A DNA stretch of 64,000 bases from Akkermansiaceae bacterium (GTDB lineage Bacteria > Verrucomicrobiota > Verrucomicrobiia > Verrucomicrobiales > Akkermansiaceae): contig JAPKCM010000008.1 of the NCBI GenBank assembly GCA_028822935.1, positions 1-64,000 of the forward strand. Direction: 5' to 3'. A model generated the notes under the pieces. The model was not told the origin of the DNA. It ran no database searches and saw nothing but the letters and a program-made list of their open reading frames with translations. The translations under genes and the position numbers were made by a program. Within the stretch, counting starts at the first letter, position 1. Each line of letters starts with the position of its first letter. This document shows, piece after piece, positions 43,750 through 61,499 of this stretch.

Positions 43750-43839
43750 GGACAGATGGCAGAGTGGTCTAATGCGCTCGCTTGGAAAGCGTGTGTGGCA
43801 GCGATGTCACCGTGGGTTCGAATCCCACTCTGTCCGCCA
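43750..43839 (+). tRNA. tRNA-Ser (anticodon GGA)
   Basis: A class II tRNA of 90 bases with CCA encoded. Acceptor stem GGACAGA / TCTGTCC, discriminator G, then CCA. The anticodon stem CTCGC/GCGTG carries the loop TTGGAAA, giving anticodon GGA for UCC and UCU. A long variable arm (about 16 bases, GTGGCAGCGATGTCAC) is the serine hallmark, and the T-arm has GGTTCGAATCC. Confidence 0.96.
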
Positions 43840-43872
43840 TAACCCCGTGCCAGCTTGCTGGCACGGGGTTAT
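43839..43872 (+). terminator. Terminator hairpin after tRNA-Ser
   Basis: A perfect 15-bp inverted repeat, ATAACCCCGTGCCAG / CTGGCACGGGGTTAT with a 4-base loop, starts at the last base of the tRNA and is followed by TGGTTTTC. Its strength and position fit transcript termination of the tRNA. Confidence 0.8.
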
Positions 43873-44029
43873 GGTTTTCTAGGCTGGGCCTGCGAGGATT
43901 AGCGAGGGAATGAGATTTGAACGGTTTCCTTCTACGCACTTTGAGCTGCTGTCGGTGGGACGAGTGACTGAGGAGAAGAGGGTCGACTAAGGTAATGAGA
44001 GGGGAAAGTCTTGTAGAATCTTCCTCAAT

Positions 44030-58632: not shown

Positions 58633-61182
58633 CTAGTTTGCGACGATATTGACGAGCTTGCCGGGAATGACGATGACTTTGCGCACGGTTTTTTCGGTGG
58701 TGTGGGCGGAGACGTTATCGTCGGCGAGGGCTTGTTTCTCGAGGTCCTCTTTTGAGATGTCGGCGGGGACGGTGAGGCGGGCGCGGAGCTTGCCGTTGAC
58801 CTGAACGATGATCTGGATTTCGGATTCGACGAGGAGAGATTCGTCGAGGACGGGCCAGGTTTGTTCGCTGAGGAGTTCGGTTTCTCCGAGGGCGGAGTTG
58901 ATCTCTTCGGCGAGGTGAGGCGCGAAGGGGCTGAGGAGCTTGAGGAAGGTGAGGAAAAGGTCGCGTGGGACTTCTCCTGCACTGGTGTAGGCGTTGGTGC
59001 ACTCCATCATGGCGCTGATGCCGGTGTTGAAGCGGAGGGTGTTGATCGCTTCTTCGACGCGCTTGATGGTTGCGTGAGTGATCTTGGCGAGGTCGTCGTT
59101 TTTACCTTCGGCGATTTTTCCGCTGAGCTGCCATTTGCCTTCGGCGTCTTCGGAGCAGGCGACGCGCCAGACTTTAGCGAGGAAGCGGTGGACGCCTTCA
59201 ACGCCTTTCATGGCCCAGGGTTTGTCCTGGTCGAGAGGGCCCATGAACATTTCGTAGAGGCGGAGGGAGTCGGCTCCGTAGAGCTCGACGACGTCGTCCG
59301 GGTTGACGACGTTGCCGAGGGATTTGGACATTTTTTGTCCGTCCTCGCCCATGATGAGGCCGGGGGCGAAGTATTTCTTGAAGGGCTCGGAGGATTTGAC
59401 GTGGCCGAGGTCGTTGAGGACTTTGTGCCAGAAGCGGGAGTAGAGGAGGTGGAGGACGGCGTGTTCTTTACCGCCGACGTAGAAGTCGACGAAACCGTCG
59501 TCATTTCCCCAGTAGTTTTCGGCCTCGGGGCTGATGAAGTTCTCGGTGTTGTCCGGATCGCAGTAGCGGAGGTAATACCAGCAGGAGCCCGCCCATTGGG
59601 GCATGGTGTTGGTTTCGCGTCGGAGCTTGTCGGAGTAGTCGATCCAGTCGGTGCAGTTGACGAGGGGACCGCGGGGGTCGCCGGTGGGCTTGAAGTCCTC
59701 CATCTCGGGTTGGAGAAGGGGGAGCTCGGATTCGGGCACGCTGGAGTGTTGGCCGGTTTCCTTATCCCAAAGAAGGGGGAAGGGCTCGCCCCAGTAGCGC
59801 TGGCGGGAGAAAAGCCAGTCGCGGAGTTTGAACTGGATTTTCTTGGAGCCTTTTTTGTTTTCGACGAGCCAGTGGATGATCTTCTTTTTGGCGTCTTTCG
59901 TTTTGAGGCCATCGAGGAAACCGGAGTTAATGGCGGTGCCAACTCCGACTGTGGCCGCGACCTCTGGGTTGGTTTCGCGACCAGAGGTCGCGGCCACGGT
60001 AACGACTTGCTTAATTTCGATATCAAATTTTTTCGCGAAGTCGAAGTCCCGCTCATCGTGTCCAGGCACTGCCATGATGGCTCCGCTGCCGTAACCCATC
60101 ATGACGTAGTCGGCGATCCAAACGGGAATTTTTTCGTCGTTGACGGGGTTGATGGCGAAGGCTCCGGTGGCGACGCCGGTTTTGTCTTTGTCGAGGCCGC
60201 GGTCCATGTCGGACTTGCTGGCGCAGGCTTTGACGTAGGTTTCGACGGCCTCTTTGTTTTCATCGGTCGTGATCTTCGCGACAAGTGGGTGCTCGGGCGC
60301 GAGGACCATGTAGGTGGCGCCGAAGAGGGTGTCGGGTCGGGTGGTGAAGACGGTGATGTCATTGCCTTCGACATCGAAGGTGACTTCGGCTCCTTCGCTG
60401 CGGCCGATCCAGTTGCGCTGGAGGGACTTGATAGACTCGGGCCAGTCGAGGGGTTCGAGTTCATCGATGAGTCGCTGGGCGTATCTCGTGATACGGAGCA
60501 TCCACTGCCGGAGCGGGCGGCGCTCGACAGTCTCGCCTTTTTTCTTCCACTCTTCGACTTCCTCATTGGAGAGGACGGTGCCGAGGGAGGGGGACCAGTT
60601 GACGGGGGCTTCGTGGATGAAGGCGAGGCGGACTTCGTCGATCTCTTTCTGCGCCCAGCCTTTGGCTTCGAGCTCGGAGACGGGCTTCGCTTTTTGGTCT
60701 TCGTCGCAGAAGTAGGAATTGTAGAGCTGGAGAAAAATCCACTGGGTCCAGCGAACGTATTTGGGGTCGGTGGTGTTGATCTCGCGGTCCCAATCGTAGC
60801 CGAATCCGAGTTCCTGGAGCTGGCGGCGGAAGTTCTTGGTGTTGGCCTCGGTGGTGACACGGGGATGTTGATTCGTCTTGATGGCGTATTGCTCGGCGGG
60901 GAGTCCGAAGGCGTCCCAACCCATGGGGTGGAGGACGTTGAAGCCGTTCATGCGCTTGTAGCGGCCCATGATGTCGGTGGCGGTGTAGCCCTCGGGGTGG
61001 CCGACGTGGAGGCCGGCACCGGAGGGGTAAGGAAACATGTCGAGGATGTAGTATTTCGGCTTTGAGGGATCGAAGCCTTCGTCACCGGGACCGGGGGTGC
61101 GGTAGGTTTTGTTTTCGGCCCAGTGGGATTGCCATTTGGGTTCGAAGAGGTCGAAGGGGTAAGGCTTGCGTTTCTCGGACAT
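58633..61182 (-). CDS. leuS: Leucyl-tRNA synthetase
   Basis: An 849-residue class I synthetase charging tRNA-Leu. The start is ATG 61182 ([18 protein letters not shown]). Signature HVGH is at residues 59-62 ([16 protein letters not shown]). The editing (CP1) domain has [11 protein letters not shown] and the GHDERD region. KMSKS is in [10 protein letters not shown], and WYYLRY is before it; the C-terminal anticodon-binding domain is intact. Odd feature: at about residues 396-411 the coding DNA holds a perfect 17-bp inverted repeat (59951-59967 / 59981-59997), reading [18 protein letters not shown] in a loop that varies between species. The total length is normal, so the loop is replaced and not lengthened. 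The long ORF on the other strand is a shadow. Confidence 0.95.
59951..59997. repeat. 17-bp inverted repeat in leuS
   Basis: GTGGCCGCGACCTCTGG (59951-59967) and its exact complement CCAGAGGTCGCGGCCAC (59981-59997) with a 13-base spacer. It has higher GC than its surroundings and is in frame in leuS. It resembles a mobile palindromic element settled in a tolerant loop of a gene. Confidence 0.85.
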
Positions 61183-61499
61183 GATGTTGGCGGGAGGGAA
61201 GCTGGTTTTCAGGGGGAAAACACGCAAAAAATGGCTTTTGGAGTGAGGGAAAACCACAGATGGATACAGATGGATGGGATGCCGGGGTTGAGGGAGAGGG
61301 GGAGGAACCACAACCGTAGCGAAGTGGGGATAGCCAACCACAAAACTTACGAAAGGGACGAAACTTGCTTGGGGAGGCTTTCTCCTTTGCTCTTCGAGCT
61401 ACGGCGCGACAATTGCCCCAGGTTGGGTATGTTTAGCCCCTGTGGGGTGTTTCTTGCGAGATGGAGGGGAACCAAAAGCGAAACTTTCGCTACATCGGC
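61183..61499. repeat. Non-coding region with degenerate dispersed repeats
   Basis: No gene in about 315 bases. Three short blocks look like known kinds of verrucomicrobial intergenic repeats: ACCACAGATGGATACAGATG (61254-61273) with its own tandem unit; CCACAAAACTTACGAAAGGG (about 61339-61358); and TTTGCTCTTCGAGCTACGGC (about 61386-61405). The first is tandem (ACAGATGGA/ACAGATGGA). Resemblance is from general knowledge of such genomes, not from a search. Confidence 0.4.

Follow-up and report, generated by a model that had tools for sequence, protein, structure and literature searches.

The stretch of DNA analysed here (the window; the first 64,000 nucleotides of contig JAPKCM010000008.1 from an Akkermansiaceae bacterium) encodes leucyl-tRNA synthetase (LeuRS) in leuS, whose open reading frame (ORF) product matches PF13603, the LeuRS editing-domain family (Table 1). 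For comparisons, we used the coding part at 58636-61182 (849 aa). The initial annotation of this DNA had reported a perfect 17-bp inverted repeat with a 13-base spacer, translated in frame within leuS, and the arms, the ORF and the Pfam match all bear this out. The arms (59951-59967 and 59981-59997) pair perfectly across the 13 nt, and with one mismatch allowed the repeat reaches over 59948-60000, with 20 bp per arm. It consists of a full repeat unit and a truncated, inverted one, with the GTGG tags facing outward. The second unit is translated as part of PEVAATV and scores only 23.8 bits, as a stretched match to our covariance model R1 at 59948-59998; the full unit is itself one of the 11 copies used to build that model.

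Table 1 Features of the leuS locus in the window.
Feature	Position	Strand	Evidence
leuS, leucyl-tRNA synthetase, host gene	58633..61341	-	ORF; Pfam PF13603, PF00133, PF08264
Complete 33-nt repeat unit (GTGG tag; GCGACC/GGTCGC stem; TCT loop), translated in frame	59968..60000	-	covariance model R1, 51.4 bits, E 6.2e-11
Second unit, inverted, cut after loop (tag, left stem, loop only)	59948..59967	+	20-nt arm, 95% complementary to full unit

We compared the window with 150 simulated ones (order-3 Markov model, spacer up to 60). None held a perfect inverted repeat of at least 17 bp, and one held a 14-bp repeat. The real window contains one other perfect inverted repeat of at least 14 bp, an 18-bp repeat at 43837-43874. 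This one has a 2-nt spacer, adjoins the 3' end of an apparent tRNA gene and is followed by a T-rich stretch; it is probably an ordinary terminator.

A 62-nt query from the leuS site recovered further copies elsewhere in the window's own genome (G000; 4.59 Mb in 156 contigs, a 96.1% complete assembly). The initial annotation had suggested searching the genome for a 47-base unit at coding and non-coding sites; copies were found at both kinds of site, but the unit that recurs is a 33-nt hairpin (consensus ACCGTGGCCGCGACCTCCGGTCGCGTnGCCAAn), with 22 of its 33 columns invariant among the 11 aligned copies. Among the 150 of 7751 candidates that were scored with R1, at least 13 strong copies (E < 1e-6) lie in G000, on 11 contigs, and at least 19 when E values up to 1 are admitted. 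GTGG forms the 5' end of 10 of the 11 aligned copies (GGGG in one), and its last three bases are paired in the predicted fold. Single units form a hairpin with a short loop, with RNA z-scores of about -3. The leuS pair is the only one with outward tags, all remaining strong copies being single units. At E 1e-4, R1 also matches related hairpins in relatives (one in G009, seven in G018, three in G024 and 15 in G043), all below 41 bits, compared with 51-58 bits for eleven G000 copies. A scan of the contigs of named genomes, from which own or near-own records were possibly excluded, returned two exact matches, in Nocardia and in a Zixiibacteriota MAG, which we read as chance.

Five of the at least 13 strong copies are intragenic, in leuS, alaS, mutS and, twice, uvrA (gene names assigned by NCBIfam), and a weak copy (E 0.014) lies in metH. 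The proposal that this palindromic repeat is able to settle in genes, in frame, thus held up. All six genic copies, including the weak one, are read in the same frame and encode VAATSGR, with AAAISGR in one uvrA copy and VATTSGR in metH. Another nine copies, eight of the at least 13 strong ones and a weak one, follow an ORF stop in sense orientation; in six of the nine the distance to the stop is no more than 5 nt (counting ORFs of at least 120 aa, taken from open frames alone). We read the shared frame as selection for a mild peptide; since the orientation is uniform, the choice is among three frames, not six. The two uvrA copies are about 1.8 kb apart in one frame (C138:97298-99142; L071, L064).

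We then read the leuS loop in relatives. Matches to leuS were present in 38 of 38 genomes searched, and the loop was read in all 30 leuS loci returned by the genome search. In 16 of the 18 other same-genus loci, the loop between QVV and G-A-NS has 14 residues (type QPTGDQDWQGYTDP), so that sister species carry a different peptide there. Neither of the two outcomes that the initial annotation had named as refuting its reading, a lack of further copies in the genome and a conserved peptide at this loop in relatives, was therefore observed. The window's loop has 20 residues, six codons more, and nine same-genus leuS genes total 843-844 codons against 849 in the window; the earlier statement that the element fills the loop without changing its length therefore does not hold. 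Compared with Thermus thermophilus LeuRS, the window is two residues longer across the loop. Because four representatives of other families (L113, L115, L175, L176) share a DWQG or DWKG core, we take the native loop of this type to be ancestral. Length also differs at other genic copies: the alaS loop has 12 residues in G000 and 7-8 in 16 same-genus loci, and mutS is 3-4 codons longer in G000 than in most of the 16 relatives read (17 of 29 loci, those fitting a search pattern, were compared). The mutS of the close species G007, the nearest by this gene, is without the repeat; its leuS match stops at codon 208, at a contig end. The net gain is about 12-15 nt from a 33-nt repeat and 18 nt from the 53-nt leuS pair, smaller than the repeat itself, which indicates that native residues were lost each time. 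In G004, the same leuS loop holds another long insert of about 60 residues (L163), unrelated and, by eye, neither repeat nor REP-associated tyrosine transposase (RAYT).

In four species (G018, G009, G026 and G057), this leuS loop is occupied by a complete RAYT that is in frame and has inverted repeats at its ends. In G018 and G009, which belong to the window's genus, LeuRS appears as two pieces of one open frame (1068 and 1064 aa), the gap between them is filled by a Y1_Tnp match, and the RAYT-type domain starts directly after QVV(S); this is the only strong leuS match in either genome. PF01797 scores over its cut-off in all four proteins and splits their editing domain. Perfect inverted repeats of 23 bp (G018), 22 bp (G009), 27 bp (G026) and 29 bp (G057) bound the inserts. 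G057 belongs to another family, and its RAYT and 29-bp ends differ from those of the other three. All of the 12 domains that we aligned share N-H-V-H and a tyrosine (these 12 were chosen with NHVH in the search pattern), and the RAYT profile matches TnpA-REP 4er8 at 5e-6. The HUH motif and the predicted Y1-family catalytic tyrosine thus identify the domain in the relatives' leuS as a RAYT.

For the RAYT domain, comparisons between G018, G009 and G026 gave pairwise dN/dS values of 0.037, 0.067 and 0.033 at dS 1.2-1.9 (above 1 throughout and near saturation in one pair), similar to those of the LeuRS flanks (0.026-0.102). The leuS RAYT in these three same-genus cases is under strong purifying selection, which goes beyond mere avoidance of stops and frameshifts. 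In addition, the 22-bp ends are identical across the three species, while we estimate the chance of zero synonymous change in both arms at no more than 2e-5 per pair. This suggests that the ends are kept as DNA, or homogenized.

A search of 58 genomes with a 20-bp core of these ends, allowing up to one mismatch, found it at 23 places in G009, seven in G018, seven in G043, two in G021, two in G026 (both being its leuS ends) and one in G039; it was absent from the other 52 genomes, G000 included. The reversed control pattern occurred once, in G039. The leuS RAYT in G009 and G018 is therefore flanked by genome-dispersed repeats. No other RAYT match from the profile search described below (E 1e-10) adjoins an end-core copy in the assembled G009 and G018 genomes, two of the G018 matches lying at contig ends, which makes the RAYT encoded inside leuS the best candidate mover of the end-repeat family there. 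Two other Y1_Tnp matches in G009 are located about 1 and 2.4 kb from an end-core copy (C20, C11). Of the five relatives with more than one end-core copy, two (G021 and G043) keep the native leuS loop and have no leuS RAYT. At the alaS loop, G009 and G018 carry the leuS-RAYT end repeat where G000 carries its own type. A pyruvate carboxylase frame in G009 (L328, C11:21500-25500) contains the leuS-RAYT end repeat three times, twice in frame and once inverted.

To survey other hosts, we searched the 58 genomes with a profile of 12 in-gene RAYTs (E 1e-10), obtaining 93 matches in 32 genomes, 31 of them in open frames of at least 500 aa. Pfam or NCBIfam identified the host for 25 of the 31, and one case cut by a contig end (G047) brings the number to 26: metH (8), leuS (4), carB (3), alaS (2), an Eco57I-type methylase (2), a glycosyltransferase (2), and one each of recG, GcpE (ispG), adenosine deaminase, a type I restriction R subunit and a DUF5107/TPR protein. 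The six long-frame matches of the 31 without a verified host may be spurious frames. Six of the 26 host proteins (L168, L210, L213, L216, L221 and L223) had no PF01797 entry at 1e-5; for these the RAYT call rests on our own profile and, in L221, also on NF047646. In alaS and recG, the inserts begin to match the profile only at positions 73-77 and are thus of another RAYT type. Inverted ends of at least 11 bp were not found for several in-gene RAYTs. The arrangement was found in four genomes in the case of leuS and in eight in that of metH, and the matched stretches are free of stops (some of the genomes are fragmented), so a single assembly chimera cannot explain it. In the 96.1% complete G000 assembly, no RAYT of this family was detected at E 1e-10; there are two PF01797 matches, on contigs C154 and C126, both of which are without any of the at least 13 strong repeat copies.

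A tree of 34 RAYT domains, including 11 hand-picked stand-alone RAYTs, showed a close correspondence with the host gene. The labels leuS, metH, carB and stand-alone required four changes (minimum three), as against a mean of 12.9 in 200 shuffles, none of which was as low. All eight metH RAYTs fall together on one side of a branch (100/99), along with the uncounted ispG and TPR RAYTs, and the three carB RAYTs do so at another (97/93). The leuS label needs two changes, with G057 apart, and the leuS RAYTs form no single confident clade. Within metH, RAYT and host trees conflict: the hosts of G020 and G026 share a 95% identical C-terminal flank and are grouped (97/95), yet their RAYTs are only 32% identical, and the G020 RAYT clusters instead (100/99) with its G043 counterpart, the host flanks of these two genomes being 69% identical. 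The clustering by host gene and the metH conflict suggest repeated, site-specific movement of a site-bound lineage between species, to which hidden paralogy and long branches could add apparent conflict.

We consider the leuS element quite probably a non-autonomous mobile repeat of the REP type, settled in frame in the LeuRS editing-domain loop. This reading is based on the dispersed G000 family of at least 13 copies at E < 1e-6; on the short-looped hairpin of its single units; on the genic copies lying in one frame and the rest behind ORF stops in sense orientation, as published REPs do; on the native leuS loop of sisters and the repeat-free mutS of G007; on the same leuS loop holding whole RAYTs with 22-29-bp inverted ends in four relatives; and on an alaS loop occupied by different repeat types in G009/G018 and G000. 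Repeats of this kind are presumed to travel in single-stranded form, with a RAYT as their transposase. Genic insertions would survive where the loop tolerates them, if they lie in sense and in the frame giving the mild peptide VAATSGR; native loop residues are lost, perhaps but not necessarily in the same event. Since the own assembly has no RAYT of the searched family, the mobilizer too can only be inferred: a RAYT that was lost, unassembled or divergent would have moved the G000 family. This absence weakens the mobile-repeat reading, as do the two PF01797 contigs without strong copies, the GTGG tag that is partly paired in the predicted fold where the published tag is unpaired, and the single tags-outward pair; movement itself is deduced here from sequence comparison.

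Three other explanations deserve weighing against this one. The leuS pair could be what is left of a complete RAYT transposon, once in frame and bearing GTGGCC-type ends, after internal deletion of its transposase. Its tags point outward, as in the four leuS RAYT elements, it occupies the same loop and, like the elements of G018, G009 and G026, has its left boundary one codon past QVV, and its second unit is truncated on the inner side, which is what an internal deletion would produce. All other strong copies, however, are single, which implies that singles move without an intervening RAYT, and the ends of the pair differ from the leuS-RAYT ends of G009, G018 and G026, whose pattern has no match in G000. 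We therefore hold such an origin to be possible but rather doubtful; that the window pair descends directly from a leuS RAYT like those of these three species was rejected because of the different end sequence, absent from G000. Slightly less probable still, and in our judgment unlikely, is that these are ordinary REPs with an RNA-level role, as terminator-like or stabilizing hairpins behind genes, and that genic copies are harmless by-products of their spread. The stability of the hairpins and the eight of at least 13 strong copies in sense downstream of ORF stops agree with such a role, which is also compatible with a mobile repeat, but it does not account for five strong copies that sit in conserved enzymes and share one frame. 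That the inverted repeat is a chance feature of a coding loop, which indeed varies in length and sequence across the order, has next to no probability: none of the simulated windows reproduced it, and the dispersed copies in G000, with E values down to 6e-13 elsewhere in the genome, refute it.

Inteins and homing elements reside in frame at fixed sites of essential enzymes, are patchily distributed and form site-bound lineages. RAYT transposons might live like inteins that do not splice, an idea for which we see not quite an even case: as a loop domain of an essential enzyme, site-bound lineages (leuS, metH, carB, alaS) would move between species into the same in-frame loop, and dispersed REPs, the window's leuS pair included, would be their non-autonomous satellites or stripped relics. 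Embedding would guarantee expression of the transposase, and its frame-breaking loss would be lethal. The RAYTs described here are likewise in frame, at fixed sites and patchy, but their ends are palindromic DNA repeats and there is no sign of splicing. Inteins themselves were rejected, as no Hint family occurs among the listed Pfam matches of 27 RAYT-bearing proteins.

Tagged REPs, in-gene ones included, were described by Di Nocera et al. 2013 (PMC3733652). According to the part of that article available to us, GTAG-tagged REPs are dispersed palindromes of 20-40 bp, mostly close behind genes and with an unpaired tag, some of which lie in frame in conserved enzymes such as tRNA synthetases; Opitutus terrae leads in the number of GTAG repeats within genes, two of its uvrA genes being hit twice, and most of its GTAG-20 repeats are tagged GTGG (PMC3733652). 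The G000 family, a 33-nt hairpin with at least 13 strong copies, eight of them extragenic and behind genes, is likewise a dispersed palindrome of this size that in part lies in frame in conserved enzymes; its two uvrA copies echo the doubly hit uvrA of O. terrae, and its GTGG end is like the usual tag of GTAG-20 (PMC3733652). In-gene REPs are thus already known, and the leuS repeat, in frame within an enzyme of this sort, adds one more case to a phenomenon described in the available text (PMC3733652). Loop replacement, a single preferred frame and RAYTs inside host genes are seen here, and that text contains no such description (PMC3733652).

The initial annotation had likened the element to the repeats of Rickettsia. 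Rickettsia RPEs are also palindromic DNA translated in frame inside protein genes, but, by the description available (PMC3733652), they bear a CGTC tag and have no transposase link; identity with them was rejected, the end here being GTGG, and the nearest documented kin are the GTAG/GTGG-tagged REPs of the RAYT system. In REPIN/RAYT (TnpA-REP) systems, an HUH and tyrosine transposase is tied to hairpin repeats and to inverted pairs (PMC8049555, PMC8266576, PMC6006769), and the hairpin ends of the relatives' RAYT elements are similar in build to the G000 repeat. Among the strong copies in G000, no inverted pair spreads as a unit; the leuS pair stands alone, with its second member truncated. As far as the accessible portions of these papers go, known RAYTs are separate single-copy genes, whereas here they are internal parts of host enzymes, and a few unexpectedly long Y1 proteins were dropped as gene fusions or annotation errors (PMC6006769). 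Searches of the open-licence literature turned up no account of a RAYT translated as part of a housekeeping enzyme.

The very name of REPs calls them 'extragenic', and RAYTs have been described as separate, domesticated genes, and the in-gene cases contrast with both. Loop-replacing REPs and RAYTs that are read through in LeuRS, MetH, CarB and AlaRS would explain their persistence, as they are carried in genes the cell cannot lose. Overlong proteins dismissed as annotation errors may be real, and in-gene RAYTs yield fusion proteins that can be tested at the bench. In G000 itself, the start of contig C154 holds a larger Y1_Tnp frame of at least 324 aa that runs off the contig start (L078), a possible candidate for the mobilizer of its repeat family.
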